64,000 nucleotides of DNA from Variovorax sp. PAMC28562 (lineage in GTDB: Bacteria; Pseudomonadota; Gammaproteobacteria; Burkholderiales; Burkholderiaceae_C). The notes under the pieces are model-generated. The model worked only from the letters and a program-made list of their open reading frames with translations. It was not told the origin of the DNA and searched no databases. Numbering within the stretch: the first letter of the stretch is position 1; each line of letters starts with the position of its first letter. Both the position numbers and the translations under genes were made by a program. The stretch covers positions 4,051,501 through 4,115,500 of the forward strand of contig NZ_CP060296.1 of assembly GCF_014303735.1 (NCBI RefSeq). The letters are read 5' to 3'. Shown piece by piece: positions 40,477 through 62,234 of the stretch.

Positions 40477-40529
40477 TCAGGCCCCAGACCGTTCGAGTGC
40501 GCTAACGCCCAAAATAGCCGGCCGTCTGC

Positions 40530-40796
40530 TCAGTGAGTGCGAAGTTTTTCTTGCAGCCAGACCTTGATCAGCGACTGGTAGGGCACATCGCGGGCGTTCG
40601 CCGCGACCTTGATCGAGTCCAGCAGGTGCTGGGGCAAGCGCAGCGAAATTGTCTTGGTCGTTGGTTTCAAGTTGGGCAGCGTCACCTTCTTGGCTTTCGA
40701 CCAGTCAAGATAGTCCGCGGAATCGTGCTTTTCCCAGTACGCACGCTCCTGCGCCTCAGTAGCAAACTTCGGGATCGCTTTAATCTGCTTGGTCAT
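40530..40796 (-). CDS. brnA: BrnA-type antitoxin (ribbon-helix-helix)
   Basis: 88 residues. It has an N-terminal toxin-binding part (IPKFATEAQERAYWEKHDSA, about 8-27) and a C-terminal CopG-like DNA-binding part (TKTISLRLPQHLLDSIKVAA, about 47-66, then YQSLIKVWLQEKL). It overlaps brnT by 17 bases. The family neutralises BrnT and represses the operon. It lies between IS and integrase remnants, so it probably came with the lost element. Confidence 0.85.
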   Translation of the reverse strand: MTKQIKAIPKFATEAQERAYWEKHDSADYLDWSKAKKVTLPNLKPTTKTISLRLPQHLLDSIKVAANARDVPYQSLIKVWLQEKLRTH

Positions 40797-41079
40797 AGAT
40801 GGCTCGCTCCTTTCGGTGCATGTCCCTGGCTGAAATCACGCGAATCAACAAGTTGGCCTGGCGCAAAGTGAACGTGATGTGCAATGTGCGTCCTTCACCG
40901 GTTCTGGCCAAGGCGTGGAGGCGGAGTTCCTGACGGCTGTGAGCCCCATCTTCCAAGAGCAGCAGGGGCGCATTGAAGAACACTTGCTCCGATTCAGCCG
41001 TGGAAACACCATGCTTTTCATTCTTGCGGGCATTGCCTTCGTCCCAGTCGAACCCCGTCACACGGCTCAGGTCTACCAT
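40780..41079 (-). CDS. brnT: BrnT-type ribonuclease toxin
   Basis: 99 residues. Family marks are TGFDWDEGNARKNEKHGVS (about 8-26), EQVFFNAPLLLLEDGAHSRQ, GRTLHITFTLR and the C-terminal RVISARDMHRKERAIYDQ. Toxin first and antitoxin second is the normal order. A strong promoter sits so close that the message may start at or beside the ATG. No Shine-Dalgarno is visible. Confidence 0.85.
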   Translation of the reverse strand: MVDLSRVTGFDWDEGNARKNEKHGVSTAESEQVFFNAPLLLLEDGAHSRQELRLHALARTGEGRTLHITFTLRQANLLIRVISARDMHRKERAIYDQAD

Positions 41080-41484: not shown

Positions 41485-42069
41485 TCACACCTCCGCTCCC
41501 AGGCCGATCGGCGCCGGCACCATGTTGACGATGCGAGTGAAGAGCGCCTGGTACGGCGCGTCGGGCGTGCAACCGGTGAGCGGATCGCGATTGGCGCTGA
41601 AGGCCGCGTCGAGCTCGCGCCAGTCTTCCGGCGTGAGCACCCTTTCGGCCAGCGGCAGGATCTCGCGCTCTTCGAGAGCCATGTGTTCCAGATAGAAATC
41701 GGTATACCGCTCCAGCGCGGACTCGAAGTCCATCCGGTGCGACTCGCCCATCATCTCGAAGCCGAGCAATGCATGCTCCACGTTGCGGATCTTTCTTTCG
41801 CCACGCGCGTGGTCGTCGTCGAGCCGGTCCAGCAGTTCGCGCGATATCGGGGTCCTGGCGCGCAATCTGGGAAACAGCAACTCCGTCTCCTTGCGGTGAT
41901 GGCGCTGTTCCGGAAACTCGTCGACGTAGAACAGCATCGCGCGCAGCACCGCAAAGTCGGGCAGCGTGCCCTTGCGGCGGTGCTGCGCCAGCAGCATGAC
42001 CGCGGAGCGCAACATGGCAGCAAGTGCTGCGTGTTCCTGGCGAATGATTCGGGCGGCGAGATGTGGCAT
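41485..42069 (-). CDS. Hemerythrin-domain protein
   Basis: 194 residues from ATG 42069 (GAAAGAAG upstream). The four-helix hemerythrin ligand pattern is visible: RQEHAALAAML (about 10), FPEQRHHRKETELLFPRL (about 52-69), DDDHARGERKIRN (about 84) and YLEHMALEEREILPLAERV (about 126-144). Di-iron hemerythrins bind O2 or NO. A C-terminal extension of 45 residues follows. An FNR-like dyad lies upstream with good spacing, fitting an oxygen or NO role. Cytochrome c and lipid genes lie next upstream. Confidence 0.83.
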   Translation of the reverse strand: MPHLAARIIRQEHAALAAMLRSAVMLLAQHRRKGTLPDFAVLRAMLFYVDEFPEQRHHRKETELLFPRLRARTPISRELLDRLDDDHARGERKIRNVEHALLGFEMMGESHRMDFESALERYTDFYLEHMALEEREILPLAERVLTPEDWRELDAAFSANRDPLTGCTPDAPYQALFTRIVNMVPAPIGLGAEV

Positions 42070-42164: not shown

Positions 42165-42527
42165 TCAATGCGAACTGCTGGCGGTCGATGACTCTGGCGG
42201 TCGGCTGCCGACCGCGTTCGACGCCGGATAGTTGTAATACAGATCATTTAAATAGCGCGTCACTTCGATGATGTCGTCGTCGCGCCAGCCGAGCGATGCG
42301 ACGTCCTGCCAACGTCGCACCTGTTCTCGCAGTGAGCCCCAATCGGTCGCCAGCTTCTTGTCGCGCCAATGCACTTGAGTGCTGTGACACGCGATGCAAT
42401 TGGTCGAATAAAGCAACTCGCCGCGTGGCTGACTCGCTGCAACCTCGTACAAGGACAGCACGCCGACAACCAGGAATCCGGCGAAGCGCAGTCGCCTTGC
42501 AACGACTTTTAAAAAAACGTTTTTCAT
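42165..42527 (-). CDS. Mono-haem cytochrome c, membrane-anchored or exported
   Basis: 120 residues from ATG 42527. The start region is basic and then hydrophobic (RRLRFAGFLVVGVLSLYEVA), a signal peptide or anchor. The haem site is CIACH (about 44-48). There is no clear Met ligand after it in the usual position, so the sixth ligand is uncertain. The frame is open 26 codons upstream into the FAD gene. It lies 59 bases after the FAD oxidoreductase on the same strand and could accept its electrons; that is inference from order. Confidence 0.8.
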   Translation of the reverse strand: MKNVFLKVVARRLRFAGFLVVGVLSLYEVAASQPRGELLYSTNCIACHSTQVHWRDKKLATDWGSLREQVRRWQDVASLGWRDDDIIEVTRYLNDLYYNYPASNAVGSRPPESSTASSSH

Positions 42528-42586
42528 TCGAATAGCCTCGTGCAAATGGCAATAAGGGACATTGCGGTAGATCAACTCGTTGAACG

Positions 42587-43948
42587 TCAACGACCCATCA
42601 CGCATTTGTCGTACAGATGCGGCGCCAGACGCTTTGGGTCATATCTCTGCTTTAGCGCCTCGTACCGCGGCATGCCGTAGGTGTGCCCGAATTCGTCACG
42701 GGTGAAGTAGCAGTCGGAGTACAAAGACTTGATGCCGCCGAGCCGCAGCACTTCCTGCTCGATCAGGCGGTTGAAATACCCGGGCTCGTGCACCTGGCGT
42801 GTTTTCACCACATCCCAAAACCCAAAGTTGACATACAGCTGCCCGGCCCGCAGCGGATACAACGAGAAGTTTGCGCTGGGGTCGGGCGCATGCACCGGAC
42901 AAATCCATACGGGATGAATACCGATCTCGCGCTGCAGGAAGTCCAGAAACTCACCCGCCGATGCAATGGGGATATCGACATCCTGAATCACGGACTCGGC
43001 GAACATGCCACTCAAACGCGCGAGGCGCTGGGTCAATCCCACCCGTGCACCCATCCGCATCAGGCGCGCGTAGGTCTTTGAATTCAGGTGCGACCGGCCG
43101 AACAGGCGGCGCACTACCGGGTTCTGCGCGCCAAAGTTCTTGGAGCACCAGAACCAGTCGGTGTCCCAGCGCCAGAGATAGTCCTTAACACTCAGATGAT
43201 CCACCGGCTTTGCGAGCAGGGACCGGTAATAGATCTTCTCGAAGTCATAACGGCTGAGTGGTCCTCCGACCTCTTCGAATCGTGCGATGTTCAGCACGAA
43301 TGTCGCAGGACTGAACACCACGCCATCGACGAAATCCGCGTCTCCCTCGCACGCCTCGGAGAGCGCGACGAAAAAGTCAGCCGCGGATTCAAACGGAATG
43401 TGCTCCACCCTCACGCACGGTTTGACCGGCAGGATTCGAAGCACGAGGCGCAGTGCGTAGCCCAGCGATCCATAGGAGTTCGGAAAGCCGAAGAACAGAT
43501 CCTGGTGCGCATTGGTGGGCGTGCACGTCACGATCTCGCCACCCGGCAACAACACGTCGAACTCGACCAGCGTGTGATGAACCAGCCCCTGCCTGAACGA
43601 TGTCGCCTCGATGCCAACGCCCGCTACCGCACCGCCTGCCGTGATCGTCTTGAGCTGCGGCACCACGGCAGGCATGGCGCCATAGGGCAATGTGCCTGCG
43701 ACGATGTCTTCGTAGGTCGCCAGGCCTTCGACCTGCACTGTGCCTGCCATCCGGTCGACGCCCAGGACATGATTGAAGCCACTGAGGTCCAAGCGATGTT
43801 TGGTGCCTTCCCGGCGAGCCCGGAAAAGATTGGAGGTCTGCTTGCTCAGACCGATGCGAGCGCCTTCCGGCACGGGATCGCTATGCAATGTCCTGAGCAG
43901 CCGTTGCCGACGTTCGCCATAGCTCGCCGCTTCAGCGCTCATACACAT
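42587..43948 (-). CDS. FAD-binding (VAO/PCMH-type) oxidoreductase paired with a Cfa-type methyltransferase
   Basis: 453 residues. A PCMH-like FAD domain covers about 30-210: LDLSGFNHVLGVDRMAGTVQ, YEDIVAGTLPYGAMPAVVPQ, ITAGGAVAGVGIEATSFRQG (about 103-122) and FGFPNSYGSLGYALRLVLRI. The C-terminal half resembles DHCR24-like and TmsA-like proteins (WFWCSKNFGAQNP, LYVNFGFWDVV). In actinobacteria TmsA reduces a 10-methylene fatty acid made by TmsB. Here the gene overlaps the methyltransferase by 17 bases, so the same lipid pathway is likely. A following cytochrome c suggests that electrons might flow outward instead. Confidence 0.82.
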   Translation of the reverse strand: MCMSAEAASYGERRQRLLRTLHSDPVPEGARIGLSKQTSNLFRARREGTKHRLDLSGFNHVLGVDRMAGTVQVEGLATYEDIVAGTLPYGAMPAVVPQLKTITAGGAVAGVGIEATSFRQGLVHHTLVEFDVLLPGGEIVTCTPTNAHQDLFFGFPNSYGSLGYALRLVLRILPVKPCVRVEHIPFESAADFFVALSEACEGDADFVDGVVFSPATFVLNIARFEEVGGPLSRYDFEKIYYRSLLAKPVDHLSVKDYLWRWDTDWFWCSKNFGAQNPVVRRLFGRSHLNSKTYARLMRMGARVGLTQRLARLSGMFAESVIQDVDIPIASAGEFLDFLQREIGIHPVWICPVHAPDPSANFSLYPLRAGQLYVNFGFWDVVKTRQVHEPGYFNRLIEQEVLRLGGIKSLYSDCYFTRDEFGHTYGMPRYEALKQRYDPKRLAPHLYDKCVMGR

Positions 43949-45152
43949 GCTCCCGTCCCATCGGGTAGCTGTCGGCTGTCACGTTGCCCTTGCTGAAGAC
44001 AATCTGAAAGAGGTGGGTGTATCCGCCGGGCGAGCGAAACATCTCCGCGCAGCCAGTGAGATAAGTGCGCCAGACACGTCGGAATCGTTCATCGAACCGC
44101 GCCGGGTCGAGCTCATGGACAGCGGGCCAGCGCTGCTCGAAACGTTCGGCCCAGGCATCGAGCGTGGGGGCGTAGTGACGCCGCAGATTCTCTATGTCGA
44201 GCACCTCGAGTCCGTTGCGCTCCATCTCGACGATCACGTCCGCAAGACTTGGAATCCAGCCACCCGGAAAGACATGCTTGCGAATGAACAGCTCGGTTTC
44301 GTAGTGCCCCACATGCCCGATGAAGTGAAGGATGCCGATCCCGCCGGGCTTCAGAAAGGCGGCATGCGCGCGAATGACCTCGGGCAACTGGTCGCGCCCG
44401 GCGTGCTCGAGCGTGCCGATGGAAACCACCTTGTCGTACTGCTGGTCGACCTCCCGAAAGTCCGCTTCGCGCACGCTCAGCGCGTCGGCCAGGCCGCGCC
44501 GGGTGATCTCGTCGCGCAGCCACACCACTTGCTCGGTGGTCGTGTTCACGCCCACGCCCGATGCACCGGTCGTTTCGTGAGCGCGAAACATGAAGCCGCC
44601 GAATCCGCAGCCGATGTCGACGAAGCTGTCGTCGCGCTGCAGACGGATCTTTCGGCAGACATGATCGATCTTGTTGCGTTGTGCCTGCTCCAGCGTCTCA
44701 GTACCTGCGGGCCAGTAGCCGAATGTGTACATCAGCAACGGCTCATCCAGCCAGAGCCGGTAGAAGTCGGTCCCGAGTCCGTAGTGCGCACGTGCGTTGC
44801 ACTTCGCTTTGGCCGGGTCGCGGTTCGAATGACGCAATTCGAGCAGTTCGTTCTCCATACCGTTGACCGCACCCGACTTCCGGTCGAAGCCGGATGCCAT
44901 ACCGGCTGCCAACGCCGCACCGAAATCACCCTCCACGTCGACCGCTTGGTCAAAGTACGCCTCCATCAGCCCCATATGGCCACGGGTGGCTGTCGAGAAG
45001 AGGGCGGCGTCGGTATGGAAGACGACAGTGAACGCAGGGTTCGCGCCACCGACATGGAAGGCGATGCCGTCTGGCAGCCGCACGGCAAAAGACGTCGCCG
45101 CACGCTCACCGAGGCCATCGAGCATGTCGCGCAGAGTTGAGGGCAGCTTCAT
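43932..45152 (-). CDS. Cyclopropane-fatty-acid-synthase family SAM methyltransferase (TmsB/UfaM-like)
   Basis: 406 residues. It acts on unsaturated acyl chains of membrane lipids. Visible are HYGLGTDFYRLWLDEPLLMY (about 124-143), AQRNKIDHVCRKI, the SAM site FVDIGCGFGGFMFRAHE (about 178-194), SIGTLEHAG (about 248) and LHFIGHVGHYETELFIRKH. The usual YSCAYF-type Cys of CFA synthases, a bicarbonate ligand in E. coli Cfa, is Phe (MYTFGYW), while the Glu, His and Tyr of the site remain. An N-terminal SCP2-like part precedes it. The start overlaps the upstream gene as ATGA. Confidence 0.87.
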   Translation of the reverse strand: MKLPSTLRDMLDGLGERAATSFAVRLPDGIAFHVGGANPAFTVVFHTDAALFSTATRGHMGLMEAYFDQAVDVEGDFGAALAAGMASGFDRKSGAVNGMENELLELRHSNRDPAKAKCNARAHYGLGTDFYRLWLDEPLLMYTFGYWPAGTETLEQAQRNKIDHVCRKIRLQRDDSFVDIGCGFGGFMFRAHETTGASGVGVNTTTEQVVWLRDEITRRGLADALSVREADFREVDQQYDKVVSIGTLEHAGRDQLPEVIRAHAAFLKPGGIGILHFIGHVGHYETELFIRKHVFPGGWIPSLADVIVEMERNGLEVLDIENLRRHYAPTLDAWAERFEQRWPAVHELDPARFDERFRRVWRTYLTGCAEMFRSPGGYTHLFQIVFSKGNVTADSYPMGREHVYER

Positions 45153-46765
45153 TGAAAGTTCCGGCTGCGCCGGCTATCGGCGTCGGCGTCGATGTCGATG
45201 TCGGTGTCGATGTCGATGTCGATGTCGGTGCAAACATCGAACGTCAGTGCACGTTCTTCGGCACTCAGTGGCTCGTGGGTCGCGAGCTGGCGCTCCAGCA
45301 CGTCGAGGTCTGCATCGGACGCATCGTTGTCCAGCGCGGTCCGGCGTGCGACGCGCTGCCGCAATGTCGCTTCAGCCGCGCGGCAATGCAGGATCGCGAA
45401 TGGCACGCCGAGCGACGAGGCCAGCGCACGAAACGCACGCCTCTCTTCGCCCCCGAGAAATGCCGCGTCGACGATCACCAGGTACCCCGCTCGCAACACC
45501 TCTGCGGCACTCGCCCTCAGATGGTCGAAGGTGCGGCGCGTCGCTTCGGTGGCGTAGAGATCGATGCCGTGCCCGGACGAGCGCGCGAGCGCATCCAGGC
45601 CGAACAGGCGTTTGCGTTCCACGTCGGATCGGATGCGCACGGCGCCCGCTTGCTGCACCAGCTTCATGGCGACGCTCGACTTGCCGGAGCCCGAGAAGCC
45701 ATAAGTGATGAGCAGGCGTGGGCCACCGGGAGCGGCGTGCGTCAAGCGCTCCGCCGTGGCGATGTAGTCGGGCACGTCTTGCGTGCCGCCATGCCCTGCA
45801 GCAAGCGAAGACGCCAGCGCCCGCACCAGCGACCGATACACCTCGTAGAAACGAAACACGGCCATGCCGGCGTAGTCGCCACTGAGCTGCAGCCATGCGT
45901 CCAGGAAGCGGAAGGCAAGCCGCGGCCGATGGTGCGCTGCCAGGTCCATCGTCAGGAAGGCTACGTCGCTCATCACGTCGATCCAGCGCAGGGCCGGATC
46001 GAACTCGATGCAATCGAAGGCGGTGAGCTCGCCGCCGAGCCGCACGATGTTGGCCAGATGAAGGTCGCCATGGCATTCGCGTACGGCACCGGCGAGTCGG
46101 CGCGCTTGCCACGCTGGCTGCAACGCCTGCGCGCGGTCCTGCGTCCAGGATCGGAGCTTTTCAAGTCGATCTGCGGTTGCGCCTTCAGCATCGGTCGGCA
46201 ATGCGTTAAGGACCCCGTGCATTGCTCGCATGATCTGCGCAGGCTCGCCGAAGGCAGAGTCCGCTGCAGCGCGCTCGGCACGGGCGTGGAACGACGCGAG
46301 TCGTTGGGCGAAGCTGTCGAGCATTCCGGCCGCGCCGACCACGACGTCGTTCACCACGAGATCGCGCAGCAGCGCCGAATCAGGAAAGCGCCGCATGCAC
46401 ACGACGTGATCGATCGGCTCTCCTCCGCCCCCGATACGAGGTTGTGCAGGCGTGCCGCGAACCGAGAGAACCCGCAGATACAACGACGGCGCCAGGCGCT
46501 TGTTGAGCCGCAGCTCTTCGTCGCAAAAGTGCTTTCGTGCCTGCAGCGTACTGAAGTCGACGAACGACAGCCGCACCGGCTTCTTGAGCTTGAAAGCCAG
46601 CCGGGGCGTCAGCAGCACCCACGAGATGTGCGTCTCCACCATGTCGACGTTTTGACCGGTGGCGTCGGCCAGCCAGGCGCGCAAGGCTTGCACGGAAACA
46701 TTGGCCGACGGAGGCCCGCCATCGCCAGAGCGAGACGGTTCCGGGCGTGAGCCGACCGTATTCAT
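45149..46765 (-). CDS. Aminoglycoside-phosphotransferase-like/P-loop kinase fusion
   Basis: 538 residues from ATG 46765. The N-terminal part (about 35-330) is an APH-like kinase fold: FKLKKPVRLSFVDFST lysine region and the catalytic loop ECHGDLHLANIV (about 235), then AFDCIEFDPALRWIDVMSD. The C-terminal part (about 350-530) is a zeta-toxin/AAA-like kinase with Walker A YGFSGSGKSSVAMKL. The tail is a run of Asp-Ile and Asp-Ala repeats. Substrate unknown; the fusion is widespread in proteobacteria. It is translationally coupled to both neighbours. Confidence 0.83.
   Translation of the reverse strand: MNTVGSRPEPSRSGDGGPPSANVSVQALRAWLADATGQNVDMVETHISWVLLTPRLAFKLKKPVRLSFVDFSTLQARKHFCDEELRLNKRLAPSLYLRVLSVRGTPAQPRIGGGGEPIDHVVCMRRFPDSALLRDLVVNDVVVGAAGMLDSFAQRLASFHARAERAAADSAFGEPAQIMRAMHGVLNALPTDAEGATADRLEKLRSWTQDRAQALQPAWQARRLAGAVRECHGDLHLANIVRLGGELTAFDCIEFDPALRWIDVMSDVAFLTMDLAAHHRPRLAFRFLDAWLQLSGDYAGMAVFRFYEVYRSLVRALASSLAAGHGGTQDVPDYIATAERLTHAAPGGPRLLITYGFSGSGKSSVAMKLVQQAGAVRIRSDVERKRLFGLDALARSSGHGIDLYATEATRRTFDHLRASAAEVLRAGYLVIVDAAFLGGEERRAFRALASSLGVPFAILHCRAAEATLRQRVARRTALDNDASDADLDVLERQLATHEPLSAEERALTFDVCTDIDIDIDTDIDIDADADSRRSRNFQ
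45184..45230. repeat. Hexanucleotide GATGTC-type tandem repeat in the 3' end of the kinase fusion
   Basis: About seven units of GATGTC/GGTGTC in the plus-strand reading encode alternating Asp-Ile and Asp-Thr/Ala on the minus strand. Unit changes keep the frame, so only the length of the acidic tail varies. Confidence 0.85.
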
Positions 46766-47142
46766 CAAGTCTTCATCGGCGCGGCCATTCCCGCATGCTT
46801 CGTGAAGTAGCGCCTCGCCAGGGCGACGAGCGCGTGGGCGCTCAAGTGCCCCGTCGTCTCCCACCCGGCGATGCGAAGTCCCACCTCGGGGCGGTGCTTC
46901 TCGACGTAGTGCCGGAAGTCCGCCTGCGCGGTATGGGAGCCGGCGATCAGCACCTCGGTGATGCCCTGCATCGCATCGCACACGGCACCGAAGAACTCAT
47001 GCTCGCTACGGACCTCGCTGCCATGCTGGCGCGTGTAGTGCTCGTGCGCCTTGACCTGCTTTTCGAGCACTTGCGCAGCGTCGAACTGCAGGACTTGCGC
47101 GGTGTGGTGGTCGACCCAGACGACGGCATGAAAAAGCGACAT
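46765..47142 (-). CDS. eRF1/pelota-domain-like small protein (translational machinery protein family)
   Basis: 125 residues from ATG 47142. The family opening FHAVVWVDHHTAQVLQFDA (4-22) is clear, then HEHYTRQHG, EFFGAVCDAMQGITEVLIAG (about 63-82) and HYVEKHRPEVG. Relatives are annotated as translational machinery proteins for their likeness to a release-factor domain; a stress role is assumed, not shown. The stop and the next start overlap as TGATG. It is the first gene of the operon that ends with the cytochrome c. Confidence 0.75.
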   Translation of the reverse strand: MSLFHAVVWVDHHTAQVLQFDAAQVLEKQVKAHEHYTRQHGSEVRSEHEFFGAVCDAMQGITEVLIAGSHTAQADFRHYVEKHRPEVGLRIAGWETTGHLSAHALVALARRYFTKHAGMAAPMKT

Positions 47143-47239
47143 GGATTTGCCTTTTTGTTGAGTGCGGTGCCCGAAGACATCGCCGGTTGAGGAGCAGCTC
47201 CTGAAGCGCACAGCATCCTCCGGATGCACGAAGAAGCAC

Positions 47240-47253
47240 TTGATCTGGCGCAA
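47240..47253. promoter_or_regulatory. FNR-like dyad between the divergent lipid operon and DegP-like gene
   Basis: TTGAT-CTGG-CGCAA. On the plus strand TAGCCT (47276-47281) follows after 22 bases; on the minus strand GATGCT (47212-47217) does so too. It could serve both directions as a class II site. Confidence 0.65.
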
Positions 47254-47316
47254 GTCCCGGGTGCTCGAGGTCCTCTAGCCTTGGGCTTCCCGTCAGGTCT
47301 GCAAAACGCACAAACC

Positions 47317-48816
47317 ATGTTCCGCTCCGCTCTCCCGAAGTCGCGGCTTGCTACAACCGCTCGCTGCGCGATACAGGCCTTGACCTGCATTGCAATGTCG
47401 AGTGCGTGCATCGCTATCGACGCGCAGCCGATGGCGCCATCTGTCGCGGCAATCCCCGTTGCGGTCTCTCCGCCCTCCTTCGCCGAAGTCTTCGCGACGC
47501 GAAGCGCAGCGGTCGTCGACATCACAACGCTGAGCTTTGCCAGTAACTCGACCACCGACGACGGCGAACTCGAAGTCGAACCCGGCAGCGACTTTGCCGA
47601 CCGCCTGCCCAGGCCACTTCCTGCGAGCTTGCCTGCCGGTGGCTTTCGGGACACCGCAACAGGTGTCGTGATGGACCGCAACGGCCTGATCCTGACCAGT
47701 GCGCACGTCATCACCGGCATCGACGAAGTGCAGGTCTACCTGAGCGACGGTCGCCGCTTCGTCGGGCGCGTGCTCGGCGTCGACAAGGCCACCGACACCG
47801 GCTTGCTGCGCATCGACGCCACCGACCTGCCCGTCGCAGTGTTCGGCGATTCGTCGGCGCTGGCCGTGGGCGACTGGGTCGCCGCCATCGGCTCCCCTTT
47901 CGGCTTTCACAACACGGTGACCGCGGGGGTGGTGAGCGCCACCGGGCGCTACCTGCCGGGTGCGAACGATCTGCCTTTCGTGCAGACCGATGTCGCCATC
48001 AACCCCGGTAGCTCAGGCAGCCCGTTGTTCAACGAACGCGGTGAAGTCGTCGCCATCAATTCGATGATCCTGAGCGGCAGCGGTGGCTACATGGGATTGT
48101 CTTTTGCAGTCCCCATCAACCTGGCACTCGAAGTGGCGGCGCAATTACGCGACCACGGGTCGGTACGCCGCGCGCGAATCGGCGCGGCCTTTCAGGAAGT
48201 CACCGCGGGGCTGGCACGTTCGTTCGGCCTCGACGAAGCGGCGGGCGCCGTGGTGATTCAGGTCGACGCTACCGGCCCGGCCGCCACCGCGGGCCTGTTG
48301 CGTGGCGATATCGTGCGCACCGTCGACGGCACACGCATGCCGCACTACACCGACCTGCGCCGCAATCTCGCGCAACGCCCGCCCGGCTCCAGAGTGCGGC
48401 TCGAACTGTGGCGCGGCGCACGCTCGATGACACTCTCGGTCACGTTGGCCGAGGAGCCGAAGCCGGGAAACGGGACCGCAGGCAAAGGAGCGACGGCGCC
48501 GGCGCCACCGGCGTGGAACGACGGGCTCGGACTGCGGCTCGCCGAGCTGTCGCCTGCGCAACGGATCCGACTCGGCGAAGTGAACGGCTTGCTGGTCCGC
48601 GAAGCTGCCGGCGCTGCGCGCAGCGAAGGGGTTCGGACCGGCGATGTCATCGTCGCCGTCAACGAGACCGCGGTCGATCGCATCGACGCCTACGTGTACA
48701 TCCTTTCGCGCTTGCCGCCCGGCCGCACGGCCGCCTTGTTGGTGCGGCGCGACAAGGGCCTGGCCTACATACCGGTTCGGCTGCCCGAGCGTGCGGCCAG
48801 GAGCGACCTCCGATGA
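47317..48816 (+). CDS. Periplasmic trypsin-like serine protease with two PDZ domains (DegP/HtrA family)
   Basis: 499 residues. Signal peptide 1-36 (IQALTCIAMSSACIAIDAQ). The protease domain is about 65-290 with His in LILTSAHVITG, Asp in DKATDTGLLRID and Ser in VAINPGSSGSPLF. PDZ1 covers about 295-380 (GPAATAGLLRGDIVRTVDG) and PDZ2 about 410-490 (GVRTGDVIVAVNETAVD). It removes or refolds damaged envelope proteins. The stop overlaps the next gene as ATGA. The FNR-like site upstream suggests low-oxygen induction. Confidence 0.9.
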   Translation: MFRSALPKSRLATTARCAIQALTCIAMSSACIAIDAQPMAPSVAAIPVAVSPPSFAEVFATRSAAVVDITTLSFASNSTTDDGELEVEPGSDFADRLPRPLPASLPAGGFRDTATGVVMDRNGLILTSAHVITGIDEVQVYLSDGRRFVGRVLGVDKATDTGLLRIDATDLPVAVFGDSSALAVGDWVAAIGSPFGFHNTVTAGVVSATGRYLPGANDLPFVQTDVAINPGSSGSPLFNERGEVVAINSMILSGSGGYMGLSFAVPINLALEVAAQLRDHGSVRRARIGAAFQEVTAGLARSFGLDEAAGAVVIQVDATGPAATAGLLRGDIVRTVDGTRMPHYTDLRRNLAQRPPGSRVRLELWRGARSMTLSVTLAEEPKPGNGTAGKGATAPAPPAWNDGLGLRLAELSPAQRIRLGEVNGLLVREAAGAARSEGVRTGDVIVAVNETAVDRIDAYVYILSRLPPGRTAALLVRRDKGLAYIPVRLPERAARSDLR

Positions 48817-53371: not shown

Positions 53372-53947
53372 TCAACCCAATCGACGCCCCCAGTGGTGCA
53401 TGCGAGCAAGCCAGCGGGCACGCTGCGACTCGGTCAAGGTCTCGACCGAACCGACCACGGCATCGCCCACGGTCTTGATGCCGACGAGTCCGAAGACATT
53501 GCGCTTGAGGAGCCGCAGGCTGTGAGCCCGGTAGTACAGGCGATAGAAAAACGCCGGCATGCCCATGGTGACCACAATGCGCGCGGTGCAGCCCGCCAGA
53601 GGCTTCGACTTGAAGCTCTCCGCTTTTGGGACCGCGAAACCGGGACGCATCACCTGTTCCAGAAATCCCTTGAAGAGCGCCGGCATGTCGCCGAGCCACA
53701 GCGGAAAAACGACCATGAGATGCTGTGCATGCCCGATGGCGTTTTGCGCTGCCTGCAGCGAAGGCGGAAGTGGCTCCGACTCCCATTCGTGCCGGCTTCG
53801 CAGCAGCGGAAAGTCGAGCACACGCACATCGATGCGCGCAACCTCGTGCCCGGCGGCACGCGCACCGTCGGCATAAGCATCGGCCAGCGCGTCGCATAGG
53901 TGCGAAGCTTTCGGGTCGGGATGTCCGTTGATGATCAGCACGCGCAT
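53372..53947 (-). CDS. NAD(P)H-dependent oxidoreductase, flavodoxin-like fold (YwrO/NQO type)
   Basis: 191 residues from ATG 53947; the frame is open 21 codons upstream. It has MRVLIINGHPDPKASHLCDA (1-20), the FMN-binding start of the quinone-reductase family, then VVFPLWLGDMPALFKGFLEQ (about 79-98) and MGMPAFFYRLYYRAHS. It probably reduces quinones or protects against electrophiles. An FNR-like site lies just upstream and the export operon follows 156 bases after its stop. Confidence 0.83.
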   Translation of the reverse strand: MRVLIINGHPDPKASHLCDALADAYADGARAAGHEVARIDVRVLDFPLLRSRHEWESEPLPPSLQAAQNAIGHAQHLMVVFPLWLGDMPALFKGFLEQVMRPGFAVPKAESFKSKPLAGCTARIVVTMGMPAFFYRLYYRAHSLRLLKRNVFGLVGIKTVGDAVVGSVETLTESQRARWLARMHHWGRRLG

Positions 53948-53984
53948 AGAGCGCGCATCTTCAGTCAGGCGGGGATGCTGCGCC

Positions 53985-53998
53985 TTGATCCAGCGCAA
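53985..53998. promoter_or_regulatory. FNR-like dyad between the oxidoreductase and DksA-like genes
   Basis: TTGAT-CCAG-CGCAA. On the plus strand TAGAGT (54021-54026) follows after exactly 22 bases; on the minus strand GAAGAT (53957-53962) lies at the same distance. The predicted plus start site near 54033 places the CCCTCT repeat in the leader of the DksA-like gene. Confidence 0.68.
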
Positions 53999-54066
53999 CA
54001 CCTCCTTCACGACAGGCTTCTAGAGTGAATGCTTTCACGGTCGCGCAGACCCCGCCGGCCCTTTAC

Positions 54067-54138
54067 TCCCCCTCCCTCTCCCCCTCCCCCTCCCTCTCCC
54101 TCTCCCTCTCCCTCTCCCTCTCCCTCTCCCTCTCCCTC
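54067..54138. repeat. CCCTCT-type hexanucleotide repeat tract
   Basis: A pyrimidine-only tract of about 72 bases. From 54090 to 54138 it is about eight exact copies of CTCTCC; before that the copies are irregular (runs of C). It ends 13 bases before the ATG of the DksA-like gene, with AAGGA between them. The length is likely to vary between strains by slippage. Confidence 0.92.
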
Positions 54139-54151
54139 AAGGATTCGCTAC

Positions 54152-54520
54152 ATGACCCAACTCACTGCCCAGGACATTCAGGTTCTCTCGCGGCAACTTC
54201 ATGCGATGAAACAAAGCGCACAAGGCGAAATACGTCTTGCCAACGACGACCTCAGGCAGGCACGGCAGGCTGGCGCAAGCGAGGTTCACAACTTCAGCGA
54301 CGACGCCGAAACGCTGCAGGCGCAAAACGTTCGGGTCGAAGAGATCGAGATCGACCAGACCCGGCTGGCCGAGATCGAGCTCGCGGAAAAACTGATCGCC
54401 GATGGCCGTTACGGGAAGTGCATCGACTGCGGCTGCGACATCGCGCTGCAGCGTTTGACGGCGATGCCGACCGCCGTGCGCTGCGCTGCATGCCAGACCG
54501 CTGCGGAACAAAGTCTCTGA
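54152..54520 (+). CDS. TraR/DksA-family zinc-finger protein
   Basis: 122 residues from ATG 54152 with AAGGA upstream. A helical N-terminus (LTAQDIQVLSRQLHAMKQS, coiled coil to about 85) leads to a zinc finger with CIDCGCDI (about 90-97) and CAAC (about 113-116). Such proteins bind the RNA polymerase secondary channel. The DXXDXA tip motif of true DksA is not clear (NFSDDAETLQ may be its counterpart). An upstream in-frame ATG (54029) would add a Pro-Ser repeat but lies before the predicted transcription start. Confidence 0.83.
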   Translation: MTQLTAQDIQVLSRQLHAMKQSAQGEIRLANDDLRQARQAGASEVHNFSDDAETLQAQNVRVEEIEIDQTRLAEIELAEKLIADGRYGKCIDCGCDIALQRLTAMPTAVRCAACQTAAEQSL

Positions 54521-54529
54521 GCCGATCGA

Positions 54530-57139
54530 TCAGTCGACATGGCGGCTCCGCACACGGATGCGCCATTTCACGCCTTCGAACCAAAGCAGGCTCAAGGCCG
54601 CCATGCCGAGTCCACACAGCAGCATGAATGGCGGCGGCATCGTGAAGGCGAACAGCCGACCGATCGCGGGCACGCTCAACACCACCCCCAACATGGCCAG
54701 CGTTGCCAGAACGATCCAGCCGAACTGACCCCCCGTCACCGCACGGCCCCACCAGACAGTGCGGCTCCACGATCGGTTGGTGTGGATCGACGCGAGATTG
54801 GCCAGCACCAGCACGACGAAGGTGAGCGCCCGCGCCATGTTGTCCCGGCCCGCATCCGATGGCGCCATGAGCCGGGCCCCGGCATAGGTTGCCAGCAGCA
54901 GCAGCAGCAAGCCCAGGCCCTGCCACAAACCACGCATCAGCACCACGCTGTCGAACAGGCGCTGGTCGGGCCGGCGCGGCGGCACGGTCATCGCATCCGG
55001 CTCCAGCGGCTCGGCCTCGAACACGATCGAGCAGGCCGGGTCGATGATCAGTTGCAAGAACACGATGTGCACCGGCATCAGCAGCATCGGCCAGCCGAAC
55101 AGCACCGGAAGGATCGACAGGCCGATGATCGGCACGTGCACCGCCACCACGAAAACAATGGCCTTGCGCAGGTTGGCGAACACGCGCCGACCGTAGCGAA
55201 CCGCGGTCACGAGCGATGCGAAGTCGTCGTTCAGCAAGACCAGCGCCGCAGCCTGGCGCGCCACCTCTGTGCCGCGCGCGCCCATCGCCACGCCGATGTC
55301 GGCCGCCTTGAGCGCAGGCGCGTCGTTGACACCGTCGCCGGTCATCGCGACCACGTCGCCGCGCGCACGAAAGGCGCGCACGAGCCGCAGCTTCTGCTCG
55401 GGCCGCACGCGACAGAAGATGTGCGTCGCGGCCAGGCGCGCATCGAGTTCGGCATCGCTCAAATTGGAAAGCTCGGTGCCGGTGATGACCGGTGCATCGG
55501 TGCCCAGGCCTGCCTGCTTGGCCACCGACAGCGCCGTGGCCGGATGGTCGCCGGTCATCATCACCACGCGGATGCCGGCGGCCCGGCATTCGGCGATGGC
55601 CTGCGGCACGTCCGGGCGCACCGGGTCTTCGAGCCCGACCAGCCCGAGAAACTGGAAGTCGAAGTCGTGCTGCAGACCGGGCAGCACACCGGCAGCGAAG
55701 GTCGCCTGGGCCACGCCCAGCACGCGCAATCCGTCTGCCGCCATCGCGACGACCTGCTCGGCGACCGACGCACTGCGACGGGCGTCCAGATGGCATAGAT
55801 CGACGATGGCCTCGGGGGCGCCCTTCGCGGCGATGAGGAAGGCCCGCAGATCCGGCGATTGCCAGACCCGCGACATCGCCAGCATCTCGGGTGACAGGGG
55901 ATAGTCGTCGATCAAGGTCCAGTCGGTGTGCAGGTGTTCGGTGTGCGCCAGCAGGTGTTGACCAGCCTCGCCGATGGCCGATTCCATCGGATCGAAAGCG
56001 CGACGGTGGCTGGCAAGCACCGCGTACTCCAGCACCCCATGGAGTTCTTCCTGCAGCGGCGTGGCATCCGCCTTCTCGCTGTCGCGTAGCGTGTCGCGCC
56101 CCATGTCGTGCACCGCCGCTTCGGACCACAGGCGCCTGACGGTCATGCGGTTGGCCGTCAGCGTGCCGGTCTTGTCCACGCACAGCACGGTGGTGGCGCC
56201 GAGCAGTTCGACCGCGGGGATGCTGCGGGCCAACACCTTTTCGCGGGAGAGGCGCCATGCACCGAGGCCTAGAAACAGCGTCAGCACCATCGGCAGCTCT
56301 TCCGGCAACAACGCCATGGCCAGCGTCAGGCCGGCGAGCAGCCCTTGCAACCAGTCGCCACGCAGCAAGCCGAAAACAATGGCCAGTGCAGCCGCCAACG
56401 CCAGGCCGACGATGGCAACGCGCGTGACCACACGTCGCGTCTCCTGCTGGATCGGTGTGGACTCGGTCTTGATCGCAGCAAGCGACTGGCCGATGCGGCC
56501 CAGCGCGCTATGCACGCCCGTGGCAGTGACCCGGCCTTGCGCCGTGCCGCGTGTGACAAGGGTGCCGGCAAACACCGCGCCTGCGAGCGACGCCGCCTGC
56601 TTGGCCACAGGCACCGACTCCCCGGTCAGCAGGGACTCGTCGACCGCAAGATTGACGCAAACGATGAGCGACAGATCGGCCGGCACACGATCGCCCTCGG
56701 CCAGCATCACGATGTCGCTCACCACCAGATCGCGGGCTGCGACGGTGCGCTCCTTTCCATCGCGGACGACGCGAGCCTGAGGACTCGACAGATCGCGCAA
56801 GGCATCGAGCGAGCGTTCGCTGCGCCGCTGCTGGACGAAGCTGATGGCCATCACGACGAAGACGAAGCCCAGCAGCATCAGCGCCTCCTGAAGGTCGCCC
56901 AGGGTCAGGTAGAGGGCGCCGCACGCCACCAGCAACAGGAACATCGGCTCGAACGCCACCTCGCGCGCCAGCCGCAACATGCTGCGTGGGCGGGAGATCG
57001 GCAACTCGTTCGCGCCGTCACGCACCAGTCGGCGTTGTGCTTCGGCCTCTTTCAACCCGACGGGGGGTGCCGGTGCTGGCGCGGCGAGCGGCCCACCGGT
57101 GATGAGGTTCTGGTGCTCCGTCGGGCTTGGGGATCGCAA
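54530..57139 (-). CDS. Cation-transporting P-type ATPase (P2-like, PacL/Pma-like)
   Basis: About 869 residues from TTG 57139; the frame is open further, so the start is uncertain. N-terminal cation-ATPase domain (GLKEAEAQRRLVRDGANELP, about 24-43). The actuator motif is DESLLTGESVPVAK, helix 4 carries ALLPEELPMVLTL, the phosphorylation site is CVDKTGTLTANRM (Asp near 320), and the hinge is AMTGDGVNDAPALKAADIGV. Six C-terminal helices follow. PEELP with a soluble core of this length fits Ca2+ or H+ type pumps; the ion is not decided. It is divergent from the Ala-rich gene over a shared FNR-like site. Confidence 0.87.
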   Translation of the reverse strand: MRSPSPTEHQNLITGGPLAAPAPAPPVGLKEAEAQRRLVRDGANELPISRPRSMLRLAREVAFEPMFLLLVACGALYLTLGDLQEALMLLGFVFVVMAISFVQQRRSERSLDALRDLSSPQARVVRDGKERTVAARDLVVSDIVMLAEGDRVPADLSLIVCVNLAVDESLLTGESVPVAKQAASLAGAVFAGTLVTRGTAQGRVTATGVHSALGRIGQSLAAIKTESTPIQQETRRVVTRVAIVGLALAAALAIVFGLLRGDWLQGLLAGLTLAMALLPEELPMVLTLFLGLGAWRLSREKVLARSIPAVELLGATTVLCVDKTGTLTANRMTVRRLWSEAAVHDMGRDTLRDSEKADATPLQEELHGVLEYAVLASHRRAFDPMESAIGEAGQHLLAHTEHLHTDWTLIDDYPLSPEMLAMSRVWQSPDLRAFLIAAKGAPEAIVDLCHLDARRSASVAEQVVAMAADGLRVLGVAQATFAAGVLPGLQHDFDFQFLGLVGLEDPVRPDVPQAIAECRAAGIRVVMMTGDHPATALSVAKQAGLGTDAPVITGTELSNLSDAELDARLAATHIFCRVRPEQKLRLVRAFRARGDVVAMTGDGVNDAPALKAADIGVAMGARGTEVARQAAALVLLNDDFASLVTAVRYGRRVFANLRKAIVFVVAVHVPIIGLSILPVLFGWPMLLMPVHIVFLQLIIDPACSIVFEAEPLEPDAMTVPPRRPDQRLFDSVVLMRGLWQGLGLLLLLLATYAGARLMAPSDAGRDNMARALTFVVLVLANLASIHTNRSWSRTVWWGRAVTGGQFGWIVLATLAMLGVVLSVPAIGRLFAFTMPPPFMLLCGLGMAALSLLWFEGVKWRIRVRSRHVD

Positions 57140-57198
57140 TGTGTTGTCTCGAAGGGTGCATTGGTGCTGCAGTTCATCACGCGCCGCAGCGTCCCGCC

Positions 57199-57212
57199 TT
57201 GATCTGGCGCAA
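57199..57212. promoter_or_regulatory. FNR-like dyad between P-type ATPase and Ala-rich protein genes
   Basis: TTGAT-CTGG-CGCAA, identical to the copy at 47240. On the plus strand AAGAAT (57235-57240) follows after 22 bases. The minus strand has a weaker TGAACT at the same distance. Confidence 0.68.
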
Positions 57213-57265
57213 GCCCCGCCGGACGCGCCAGCCGAAGAATCGCCGCACCGAACAAGGACACCGCC

Positions 57266-57895
57266 ATGAAACCGACCCCACGACTTCCGAGACTCATCGC
57301 GCTCACTGCCGCCGCAGTCGCTGCTGCGGCTGTCGCCGCCGCCATCGTGATGTTGCTCAGCACGCCCGCGATGGCCGCCGGTGCTGCGGCACCGAGCCAG
57401 TCGAGCGCGCCGCCGGGGGTGGCGTCGAGCGCCAAAAGCGCAGCCATCAAGGCAGCGCACGAAGCGGAAAGCGCAGCGCGTGAAGCCGCCCATGCGGCGC
57501 GACTCGCCGCACGGCAGGGCTTGGCGACAACGGGCAAGGTGTCCAGGTCGATTGCCGAAGGGGTCCGGCGCGCGGCGCAAAAGGCCGCCGAAGCCGCCAC
57601 TCGCCTCGAGGCCAAGGCCTCCGCTTCGTCAGGCCGGGCGCTAGAAGGAACCCGGGAGGCCGCCAGGGCCACGGAGGCAGAAAGCAAAAAGGCTACCGCC
57701 GCCACCAGGGAGGCGCTGGCCAAGGCCGAGGACTCGCTGCAGCGCGCGACGCAAACCAGCAAAGAGGAAGCAGAAAAAGCAGCGCAAGCCACACGCGACG
57801 CACTGAACACGGCAGTGACCGCAACGGGCGCCGCTGCACGCTCGGCCAAGGAAGCCGTCGAGCGAACGGTCGAAGCCGCACGACACAAGACTTAA
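57266..57895 (+). CDS. Ala-rich exported or anchored helical protein (LEA/apolipoprotein-like)
   Basis: 209 residues, about 40 percent Ala. Residues 1-37 are a signal peptide or anchor (IALTAAAVAAAAVAAAIVML, cleavage near TPAMAA). The rest is an amphipathic helix with an 11-residue-like rhythm of Ala, Lys and Glu (AAHEAESAAREAAHAARLAA, then EEAEKAAQATRDALNTAV). The pattern resembles LEA, apolipoprotein and phasin-type proteins, which protect or coat membranes. It is 35 bases upstream of mgtA and probably co-transcribed. Function is inferred only from composition. Confidence 0.72.
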   Translation: MKPTPRLPRLIALTAAAVAAAAVAAAIVMLLSTPAMAAGAAAPSQSSAPPGVASSAKSAAIKAAHEAESAAREAAHAARLAARQGLATTGKVSRSIAEGVRRAAQKAAEAATRLEAKASASSGRALEGTREAARATEAESKKATAATREALAKAEDSLQRATQTSKEEAEKAAQATRDALNTAVTATGAAARSAKEAVERTVEAARHKT

Positions 57896-57930
57896 CCCGG
57901 ATCTGACCGGTCTCTGATCTCCGTCGCGCC

Positions 57931-60468
57931 ATGGTCGAAGCCCAGCCTCTGGATGCGCCCGCCCAATGGTGGCTCGAAGCACCTGCGGCCACGAGCGGCC
58001 TGACGCAAACGCAAGCCGAAGCCGCCCTCGCACAGTACGGTGCGAACCGCTTCGAGTCCCGACAGGCCAAGCCGTTGCTGGTGCAGTTCGCTGCACGCTT
58101 TCGCAATCCGCTCGTCCTGATCCTGCTGGTCGCCAGCGCCGTTTCGGCCATGACCGGCGACCTGTCGAACTTCGCCATCATCATCACGATGGTCGTGCTG
58201 AGCGTGGCAATGGACTTCTTCCAGGAGCACCGCGCCGGACGCGCCGCTGACCAGCTGCGCGACTCGGTCGCGCTGCGCACCCAGGTCGAACGCGATGGCA
58301 AGGCGCAAGCGGTCGCGGTCGTGGTCGCCGATGTCGTGCCGGGCGACATCGTCCGGCTGTCCGCAGGCGACCGTGTGCCCGCCGACGGCGTGCTGCTCGA
58401 CGCACGGGACTTCTTCGTCAATCAGGCGCTGCTCACCGGCGAGTCGTACCCGGTCGAAAAGCGACCGGGCATCGACAGTGCGCACGAAGCGGGCAATGCG
58501 GTCTTCATGGGGAGTACGGTGGTCAGCGGAAGCGCGCGGGTACTGGTGCGCCTGACGGGTCGGCGCACCGCACTCGGTGCCGTGGCGCACAGCATCCTCG
58601 CCGACCCGCCACCGACCGCGTTCGAGATCGGCACCCAGCGTTTCGGCAGCATGATCATGCGGCTCACCCTGCTGCTGGTGCTGTTCGTGCTGCTGGTCAA
58701 CGTGTGGCTCGATCGGCCGCTCATCGACTCCTTTCTCTTTGCCGTCGCACTGGCGGTCGGGCTGACGCCGGAGCTGCTGCCGATGGTCATTTCGGTGACG
58801 CTCTCGCGCGGCGCCATGCGGATGGCGGCGCTGCGCGTCATCGTGAAGCGGCTACCGGCCATCCAGAACCTGGGCGCGATGGATGTCCTGTGCACCGACA
58901 AGACCGGCACGCTGACCGAGGCCAATATCCGGCTCGACCACTGCGTGGATGCGGAGCATCGTGATACCGGTCGCGTGCTGACGCTGGCGCACCTGAACAG
59001 CCGCTTCGAGAGCGGCTTGAAGAGCCCGCTGGACGATGCGGTCCTGGTGTGCGGAACGGACGATGGTGGATGGACCAAAGTGGACGAAGTGCCCTTCGAC
59101 TTCGAGCGCCGGCGAGTGTCGGTGCTGCTGGAGCGTGCCGGGCAGCGCTGCCTGGTGGTCAAGGGCGCACCGGACGATGTCCTGAAGCTTTGCAGTCACT
59201 ACGAGGTTTCGGGCGGCCAGGCGCGCGTGCTGCTGGACGACGCGACACGCGAGCGGCTCCACGACGATTGCCGGGCGCTGGAGCGCGAAGGCCTGCGCGT
59301 GCTCGGCGTCGCATCGCGCGACATGCAGAGCACGCAGAGTCACGTGGTCGTCGGCGACGAAAGCGGAATGGCCTTCGCCGGCTTCGCTGCGTTCATCGAC
59401 CCACCCAAGCCTGGTGCGGCCGAAGCCCTGGCTGCGCTGGCGCGCAGTGGTGTCGAAGTGAAGATCGTCAGCGGCGACAGCGAGCTCGTCACACAGCACC
59501 TGTGCGCTCTCCTGAAGCTTCCGGTACGTGGTGTCCTGACAGGCAGCGAACTGGCGCAGATGGACGAGACCACCCTGCGAACCAGGGCCGGCCAGACCAC
59601 GCTCTTTTGCCGCGTCAACCCGGCGCAGAAGAACCGCATCGTGCTGGCGCTCAAGGCGCGCGGGCACGTGGTCGGCTACCTGGGCGACGGCGTCAACGAT
59701 GCCCCGCCGCTGCGCTCGGCCGACGTCGGCATCACGGTCGACAGCGCCGTCGACGTGGCCCGAGAAATGGCCGACCTGGTGATGCTCGACCACGACCTGG
59801 CCGTGCTCCACGAAGGCGTTCTCGAAGGCCGGCGCACCTTCGGCAACGTCATGAAGTACATCATGATGGGCACCAGTTCCAACTTTGGAAACATGCTCAG
59901 CATGGCGGTGGCTTCGTTGTTCCTGCCCTTCCTGCCGATGCTTCCGACGCAGATCCTGCTGAACAACGTCCTGTACGACTTGTCGGAGGCTGCAATTCCC
60001 CTGGACACGGTCGATGCCGAGGATTTGCGCCAGCCCCATACGCTGGACATCGGCTTCATCCAGCGCTTCATGTGGCTCTTCGGGTCGATCAGCTCGCTCT
60101 TCGATGCGCTCACTTTCTGGCTTCTGTTCCACGTGCTGGAGGCCAACGAAACGCTGTTTCGCACCGGCTGGTTCGTCGAGTCGCTGGTGACTCAGGTGCT
60201 GGTGATCTTCGTCATTCGGACGCGCGGCCGGCCGTGGGCAAGCCGTCCGAGCGGTGTGCTGACGATCGCCTCGCTGGGCACGGTGGCGGTGGCGCTCGCA
60301 CTGCCGTTCACGCCGCTCGGCGCACTCTTCCACTTTGCGCCGCCACCGCTGGTTTTCTTTGGCTGGCTGGCCGGCATGGTGATGGCGTATCTCGTGACAG
60401 TCGAGGTGGCCAAACGATTCTTCTACTCGCGCATCAGGAACCGTTCTACGGCAGTTCAGCCCGCCTGA
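57931..60468 (+). CDS. mgtA: Magnesium-importing P-type ATPase (MgtA/MgtB type)
   Basis: 845 residues. Motifs are LLTGESYPVEK (about 169), AVGLTPELLPMVISVTLSRG (about 275-294, the P3B hallmark), VLCTDKTGTLTEANI (Asp near 325), GYLGDGVNDAPPLRSADVGI and LLNNVLYDLSEAAIPLDTVD (about 677-696), close to the NNLLYD.SQ..IPFD of MgtA. It moves Mg2+ inward with its gradient at ATP cost in known members. No Mg2+-sensing leader is visible in the 35-base gap, so control probably comes from the upstream FNR-like promoter. Confidence 0.9.
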   Translation: MVEAQPLDAPAQWWLEAPAATSGLTQTQAEAALAQYGANRFESRQAKPLLVQFAARFRNPLVLILLVASAVSAMTGDLSNFAIIITMVVLSVAMDFFQEHRAGRAADQLRDSVALRTQVERDGKAQAVAVVVADVVPGDIVRLSAGDRVPADGVLLDARDFFVNQALLTGESYPVEKRPGIDSAHEAGNAVFMGSTVVSGSARVLVRLTGRRTALGAVAHSILADPPPTAFEIGTQRFGSMIMRLTLLLVLFVLLVNVWLDRPLIDSFLFAVALAVGLTPELLPMVISVTLSRGAMRMAALRVIVKRLPAIQNLGAMDVLCTDKTGTLTEANIRLDHCVDAEHRDTGRVLTLAHLNSRFESGLKSPLDDAVLVCGTDDGGWTKVDEVPFDFERRRVSVLLERAGQRCLVVKGAPDDVLKLCSHYEVSGGQARVLLDDATRERLHDDCRALEREGLRVLGVASRDMQSTQSHVVVGDESGMAFAGFAAFIDPPKPGAAEALAALARSGVEVKIVSGDSELVTQHLCALLKLPVRGVLTGSELAQMDETTLRTRAGQTTLFCRVNPAQKNRIVLALKARGHVVGYLGDGVNDAPPLRSADVGITVDSAVDVAREMADLVMLDHDLAVLHEGVLEGRRTFGNVMKYIMMGTSSNFGNMLSMAVASLFLPFLPMLPTQILLNNVLYDLSEAAIPLDTVDAEDLRQPHTLDIGFIQRFMWLFGSISSLFDALTFWLLFHVLEANETLFRTGWFVESLVTQVLVIFVIRTRGRPWASRPSGVLTIASLGTVAVALALPFTPLGALFHFAPPPLVFFGWLAGMVMAYLVTVEVAKRFFYSRIRNRSTAVQPA

Positions 60469-62086: not shown

Positions 62087-62119
62087 CAGTCACTGTGACG
62101 CACCCACCGTCTCACGGCG

Positions 62120-62133
62120 TTGATGCGCATCAA
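62120..62133. promoter_or_regulatory. Perfect FNR box between CYTH-CHAD and adhP
   Basis: TTGAT-GCGC-ATCAA, a perfect palindrome that matches the FNR consensus. On the minus strand CACAGT (62092-62097) lies 22 bases away. It is the best single site of the set. Confidence 0.8.
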
Positions 62134-62157
62134 TGGCCGCGGCGATGGCGTGCTTAT

Positions 62158-62171
62158 TTGATCCAGCGCAA
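62158..62171. promoter_or_regulatory. Second FNR-like dyad upstream of adhP
   Basis: TTGAT-CCAG-CGCAA, identical to the copy at 53985. On the plus strand TAAAGT (62194-62199) follows after exactly 22 bases, giving a predicted start near 62206 for adhP (ATG 62235). Confidence 0.7.
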
Positions 62172-62234
62172 CACCGCTCGCCAAGCCGCTTTTTAAAGTG
62201 AAGGCTTCCTACCCATTCGTTCTGAAAGCCACCC

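Follow-up and report, generated by a model that had tools for sequence, protein, structure and literature searches.

Closest described systems and the Variovorax locus

In the actinobacterial gene pair bfaAB (tmsAB; 10-methylstearate), BfaB makes a methylene and BfaA reduces it with NADPH, the genes lying in the order bfaA, bfaB (PMC5660069, PMC7791843). Tuberculostearate is the subject of PMC10127668. The proteobacterial pair tmpBA, for 10-methylpalmitate, is described from Desulfobacter, Marinobacter and Thiohalospira; its flavoprotein TmpA resembles geranylgeranyl reductases, is not homologous to BfaA and was inactive in the hosts tried (PMC7791843). The flavoprotein of the furan fatty acid pathway UfaM/UfaD/UfaO, UfaD, resembles phytoene desaturases (PMC7380195). 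Burkholderia has a low-oxygen-activated locus, lxa, which has been linked to persistence without oxygen and whose gene list includes a putative cytochrome c (BCAM0284) and putative CRP regulators (PMC4981469 Table 2, PMC6127331). Here, we analyze a locus in a 64,000-nucleotide stretch (the window, to which coordinates refer) of the 4.69 Mb single-contig genome of Variovorax sp. PAMC28562. Three open frames, all on the minus strand, encode a CMAS methyltransferase, a flavin adenine dinucleotide (FAD) oxidoreductase and a protein with a single CXXCH:

43932..45152, minus strand: CMAS-family S-adenosylmethionine (SAM) methyltransferase, 406 aa (PF02353, E 5e-67)
42587..43948, minus strand: FAD_binding_4 oxidoreductase (VAO/PCMH fold) of the BfaA/TmsA type, 453 aa (PF01565, E 8.5e-11)
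42165..42527, open frame to 42605, minus strand: small monohaem c-type cytochrome with an apparent signal peptide and one CXXCH (CIACH)

The best explanation, which we regard as likely, is a two-step methyl-branching pair in a low-oxygen cluster, with the cytochrome as a separate member of the regulon. The methyltransferase would use SAM to place a methylene at the double bond in an acyl chain of a phospholipid; reduction by the FAD protein, for which NADPH is the probable donor, would then leave a saturated methyl branch. The pair would represent a proteobacterial form of bfaAB that keeps the FAD family but reverses the gene order and draws its methyltransferase from another CMAS subfamily. 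In Variovorax the pair would lie within a low-oxygen/persistence cluster under CRP/FNR-like sites, and the cytochrome c would be placed directly behind the FAD gene without serving as its electron acceptor. We infer the reactions, the use of NADPH and the regulation by oxygen from sequence.

The methyltransferase and FAD oxidoreductase pair

Leaving the cytochrome aside, the methyltransferase and the FAD protein quite probably form a BfaA-type methyl-branching pair. The FAD protein shares 49-50% identity with five FAD proteins of actinobacteria and 43-50% with three from metagenome-assembled genomes labelled Nitrospira, Woesearchaeota and Patescibacteria, and an invariant core is common to it and those eight relatives. 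The actinobacterial sequences compared are proteins in the bfaA position; their genes directly precede a CMAS gene. Among the matches listed, 4 of the 120 relatives carry the UniRef name Delta(24)-sterol reductase. Because of the 43-50% identity to BfaA/TmsA-type proteins, methylenation followed by reduction is likely, not formation of a furan or diene. The pairing is conserved: of the FAD loci surveyed (96 distinct ones), 61 have a CMAS frame directly upstream of the FAD gene and 13 have one downstream.

The methyltransferase scores 206, 190, and 143 bits against three solved cyclopropane synthases. Local alignments give 92% identity to its counterpart in a sister genome and about 51-78% to the remaining proteobacterial members of its clade; identity falls to 31-37% for the actinobacterial partners and to 32% for the strongest CMAS match of its own genome (L160), presumably Cfa. 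In an unrooted tree of the methyltransferases (a single automatic FastTree of trimmed open frames, to be taken as indicative), the actinobacterial partners cluster with the presumed Cfa, apart from the clade of the window methyltransferase (support 0.99); a third CMAS group comprises the Nitrospira-type loci. The FAD family seems, from these sequences, to have recruited different CMAS partners.

The first-pass annotation of this DNA had likened the two genes to actinobacterial tmsB-tmsA. That comparison stands as far as the FAD family and its neighbor are concerned, since a PF01565 protein homologous to the bfaA-position proteins adjoins a CMAS methyltransferase. It does not extend to the gene order, which is reversed, or to an orthologue of BfaB, since the tree places the methyltransferase in another CMAS subfamily. 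The low-oxygen cluster is a further difference from bfaAB, and the pair is known here from its genes. With tmpBA the locus shares the order of methyltransferase first and flavoprotein second, but its flavoprotein is BfaA-like and not of the geranylgeranyl-reductase type; a TmpA-type reductase was ruled out, PF01565 being the sole Pfam match at E <= 1e-3.

In the furan pathway, too, an acyl chain of the membrane is methylated from SAM before a flavoprotein acts on it. The pathway differs from the pair in that the flavoprotein here belongs to PF01565 and no DUF1365 gene lies near. DUF1365, which we take to be the UfaO family, has its only match in this genome at 3,933,463. There, at about 3,930,600-3,935,600 of G000:C1 (L190 8572-13568), sigma/anti-sigma-like frames, a flavin amine-oxidase-like frame, DUF1365 and then a CMAS gene lie together (flavin and sigma labels assigned by eye), recalling the layout of the Rhodobacter furan pathway (PMC7380195). 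The earlier proposal of an unsaturated or furan-type product is not supported for the pair, as UfaD is phytoene desaturase-like whereas the kin of the FAD protein are reductases; a furan pathway at this locus was ruled out by the PF01565 flavoprotein and the location of the DUF1365 and phytoene-desaturase-like set elsewhere. The furan idea fits the 3.93 Mb locus better, because DUF1365, the flavin frame and CMAS are found there.

Two side observations concern the distribution of the FAD family. The Nitrospira-type genomes (L084, L093, L099) combine it with the third type of CMAS partner and have a fatty acid desaturase gene nearby. The loci with a FAD gene and no CMAS detected in the flanks (L049, L055, L061-L064, L067, L068, L071, L074, L076, L077, and L079) are mostly from Gammaproteobacteria.

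Possible low-oxygen surroundings and CRP/FNR-like sites

The methyltransferase and FAD frames overlap by 17 bp. They are surrounded by the following genes:

45149..46981, minus strand: AAA_33 kinase-like gene (PF13671, 9e-37; 580 bits to its homologue in the cluster of Variovorax paradoxus VAI-C)
41485..42069, minus strand: hemerythrin-domain protein, 3' of the cytochrome (PF01814, 2e-13)
47224..48816, plus strand: trypsin-like/PDZ protease (PF13365, PF13180; 548 bits to a protein of the CP063167 cluster), its true start probably further in than 47224
53372..63266: flavodoxin_2 reductase, DksA-like protein, two P-type ATPases, CYTH/CHAD protein and Zn-alcohol dehydrogenase (assigned by Pfam, except the DksA-like protein)

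The kinase-like gene overlaps the start of the methyltransferase by 4 bp and possibly belongs to the same transcription unit. With this gene at the 5' side and the hemerythrin gene at the 3' side, the methyltransferase, FAD and cytochrome genes form the central part of a longer series of genes on the same strand. The single three-gene operon described at first is thus accurate as to the three minus-strand frames and the overlap of the first two; the run is longer, and the cytochrome stands 59 bp apart when read from its preferred start (see below). In the sister genome (L032), a hemerythrin gene also comes after the FAD gene, and the CP063167 cluster contains one too. Just 5' of the methyltransferase, window positions 45153-45240 hold a GATGTC-type simple repeat encoding the kinase tail; the sister genome has an intergenic stretch there instead, with TTGATCTTGCGCAA starting 81 bp 5' of the methyltransferase. 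At the cluster edge (39925-41079), a transposase-like fragment (by eye) and a CopG-type antitoxin with its partner frame may mark a rearrangement.

The VAI-C genome (CP063167) shows the pair in a similar setting. Around it lie genes for a phosphoketolase, a PAS-domain protein with a response regulator, a Crp/Fnr regulator, two BON proteins, five universal stress proteins (Usp), a Zn-alcohol dehydrogenase, a P-type ATPase, an AAA kinase, a hemerythrin, a polyhydroxyalkanoate (PHA) synthase, a DksA-type protein, a trypsin-like protease, and a flavodoxin. The cytochrome gene lies about 6 kb upstream of the pair there, followed by a fatty acid desaturase. When 21 VAI-C cluster proteins were compared with the window, 9 matched, with the best matches at 42-64 kb; these include the flavodoxin_2 reductase, DksA-like, ATPase and alcohol dehydrogenase genes. 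The PHA synthase, Crp/Fnr, PAS kinase, phosphoketolase, and BON queries had no match in the window. To the right of the window are a Usp gene and the cbb3-type oxidase genes COX1, FixO, FixP, and FixG, with an HMA-type P-type ATPase and HemN (G000:C1 4,124,580-4,133,331; L188 9581-18332). This region begins about 28 kb beyond the methyltransferase and contains four FNR-type sites, TTGATNNNNATCAA. Together, the Variovorax clusters and the window resemble the lxa locus in Usp, BON, PHA, Zn-alcohol dehydrogenase, P-type ATPase, ribonucleotide reductase, MacB-like ABC, Crp/Fnr, and cytochrome c genes; compared with lxa, the set in this genome is partial and rearranged.

Sites resembling CRP/FNR boxes were found at the following positions:

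42562..42575, minus strand: TTGATCTACCGCAA, one mismatch to TTGATCYRGCGCAA, centred about 41 bp before the start codon of the cytochrome
47240..47253: exact TTGATCTGGCGCAA, close to where the minus-strand run gives way to the plus-strand trypsin/PDZ gene
53985..53998: exact TTGATCCAGCGCAA
57199..57212: exact TTGATCTGGCGCAA
62120..62171: FNR-type TTGATGCGCATCAA at 62120 and exact TTGATCCAGCGCAA at 62158, between the divergent CHAD and Zn-alcohol dehydrogenase genes

Exact copies of TTGATCYRGCGCAA number five in the whole genome, and four of them are in the window (47240, 53985, 57199, and 62158); the reversed pattern has none. With up to two mismatches, the window holds 9 sites against 2.07 expected, a number reached in 0 of 100 shuffles. 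The VAI-C cluster has nine sites of the general form in 37 kb. In B. cenocepacia H111, TTGATCTCGATCAA has been proposed as an Anr box (PMC9104464). The reverse complement of TTGATCTACCGCAA occurs upstream of the cytochrome homologues L116 and L117. More generally, TTG[AC][TG]N4[AC][GT]CAA is present in the 400 bp preceding the matched core in 15 of 29 distinct cytochrome homologues; the window cytochrome is counted in the 29 and falls outside the 15 because its match begins upstream of its site. In stretches drawn at random from these short loci, a site occurs in 11% of cases, a figure inflated by the sites themselves. Regulation of the cluster by oxygen through these putative CRP/FNR-like sites is plausible. 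The surroundings (the VAI-C cluster, the cbb3 genes, and the TTGATCYRGCGCAA sites) support the first-pass suggestion of a tie to respiration, here at low oxygen. We found no paper placing a BfaA-type pair in a low-oxygen cluster, in a search that mostly excluded the subscription literature, including the original lxa paper (Sass 2013).

The cytochrome c and the alternative readings

Read from its first ATG (42605), the cytochrome frame overlaps the FAD frame by 19 bp. Met27, at 42527, is the better start, because the apparent signal peptide (read by eye, not by a signal-peptide program) begins there and both the homologue P0004 (75-76% identical) and the remnant in the sister genome start there; this leaves a gap of 59 bp to the FAD gene. 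A search returned 419 homologues at E <= 1e-3, and 4 of the 120 listed carry cytochrome c Pfam domains; the window cytochrome itself matches no Pfam family at E <= 1e-3. Usual class I donors have a Met ligand. No conserved Met past the start was found in an alignment of 17 sequences, which therefore gives no indication of an ordinary class I cytochrome with His-Met ligation. Members of the family, found in 42 of 399 family-sample genomes and mostly without a Pfam label, share the invariants CxxCH, QxHWR, and several Trp. A structural model (mean predicted local distance difference test score, pLDDT, 62) gave no fold match at E <= 0.001 and was not used.

The adjacency of the cytochrome gene is not a feature of the family; among the loci seen, it occurs only here and as a remnant in the sister. 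No CXXCH frame of at least 60 aa lies within 600 bp downstream in any of 90 other FAD loci (duplicates kept, sister counted), of which 83 hold the full 600 bp and 7 less. Rare adjacency in relatives was an outcome that the first-pass annotation had named as refuting its model, and the result for the 83 testable loci weighs against the cytochrome as electron partner. In the 90%-identical sister (L032/L176), about 17 cytochrome codons remain, followed by a deletion of about 310 bp. In four further genomes of the genus (G014, G048, G009, and G040), a single contig carries both genes, 7-20 kb from each other; in the eight other family-sample genomes with both, they lie on different contigs in seven (mostly fragmented assemblies) and about 1 Mb apart in one. 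A conserved third gene was therefore ruled out by the adjacency survey and the distant positions in the family sample.

The two genes do co-occur, above chance and without adjacency. Among 101 relatives, the cytochrome is present in 10 of 11 FAD-positive genomes and 22 of 90 others, the exception among the 11 being the sister with the remnant; among 399 family genomes, it is present in 9 of 19 FAD-positive genomes and 33 of 380 others (cut-offs: FAD E <= 1e-60, cytochrome E <= 1e-12). One-sided Fisher tests, uncorrected for kinship, gave p 2.9e-5 in both samples with the own genome included and p 1.3e-4 in the family sample without it.

Several observations weigh against a BfaA-type pair in a low-oxygen cluster with an independent cytochrome. 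With respect to the pair, no full CMAS match adjoins the FAD gene in 22 of the 96 distinct loci, although four of them (L065, L070, L081, and L101) hold partial or remoter matches. The structure matches of the FAD protein are oxidases or dehydrogenases, and none of the 50 listed per search is a C=C reductase; the first Foldseek match is a cytokinin oxidase. The position specificity of the methyltransferase is uncertain, because it is no closer to the actinobacterial partners than to the presumed Cfa. With respect to the setting, only 5 of 61 methyltransferase-FAD loci have a site in the 350 bp preceding the methyltransferase (reversed control 0/61); the same search gave 0/13 for FAD-first loci and 2/22 for loci without an adjacent methyltransferase. 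Cluster markers occur within the flanks of only 11 of 80 loci, a count that leaves out generic protease, alcohol dehydrogenase and desaturase queries and has no background rate. Given these two counts, the low-oxygen tie is limited to Variovorax and some kin and does not cover the whole FAD family. In VAI-C, neither the cytochrome nor the methyltransferase has a site directly upstream. The site of the window cytochrome carries one mismatch and lies about 41 bp from the start, compared with about 60-80 bp in most relatives (starts chosen by eye), and this spacing makes it atypical. The published lxa gene list names neither a CMAS/methyltransferase nor an FAD oxidoreductase (PMC4981469 Table 2). 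Finally, above-chance co-occurrence of the FAD and cytochrome genes would also be expected from a functional link.

Such a link could be indirect, the cytochrome and the pair serving the same low-oxygen membrane and the cytochrome feeding or sensing for a cbb3 branch. The co-occurrence, the nearby cbb3 genes and the FNR-like sites before cytochrome homologues speak for it, as may the putative cytochrome c of the lxa locus; the missing Met ligand, unlike the usual class I donors, makes this role rather unlikely. Alternatively, a rearrangement in one lineage may have brought the pair and the cytochrome together with nothing shared between them. The restriction of the adjacency to this genome and the remnant of its sister agrees with such an accident, but the co-occurrence in both samples and the 7-20 kb spacing in four genomes of the genus render it improbable. 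A third reading makes the FAD protein a desaturase or oxidase that uses O2 and takes the methylated chain as its substrate, working as a functional analogue of UfaD. Its fold neighbors (cytokinin oxidase, alditol oxidase, and DprE1) would suit an oxidase; membership in the same family as the actinobacterial bfaA-position proteins, and the lesser likelihood of O2 use in a low-oxygen setting, leave little room for it. Least credible is the scheme first proposed, in which the cytochrome accepts electrons that the FAD protein draws from the methylated chain by dehydrogenation, so that the product is unsaturated or furan-type: the cytochrome is not adjacent elsewhere and has a possible regulatory site of its own, the two proteins are expected on opposite sides of the membrane (the cytochrome in the periplasm, with a best 19-residue hydropathy of 1.7 in its leader region, versus no hydrophobic stretch in the FAD protein at 1.3 or the methyltransferase at 1.1), the FAD family includes an NADPH-dependent reductase (PMC7791843), and the furan-type set lies elsewhere in the genome.

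Returning to the two-step branching pair, a broader proposal is that Variovorax and related Comamonadaceae use saturated mid-chain methyl branching of membrane phospholipids as a persistence response to low oxygen under CRP/FNR control. A BfaA-type reductase would have been recruited to a different methyltransferase, within an lxa-like regulon that also includes an unusual Met-less monohaem cytochrome c; we offer this tentatively, at slightly less than even confidence. Among the Variovorax kin profiled in one paper, 11-methyl C18:1 is reported from Caenimonas koreensis only, with 10-methyl C16:0 only within an unresolved summed feature (PMC9628874), and these profiles were not used as evidence. 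As for the cytochrome, the finding is mostly local. BfaA has been described from actinomycetes (PMC7791843), and the BfaA type is found here in proteobacteria; those that combine it with another methyltransferase would provide new enzyme pairs to try. The pair would also add a lipid-modifying arm to lxa-type clusters, for which the published list names none, and the branched lipids may have a testable role in membrane adaptation as oxygen runs out.

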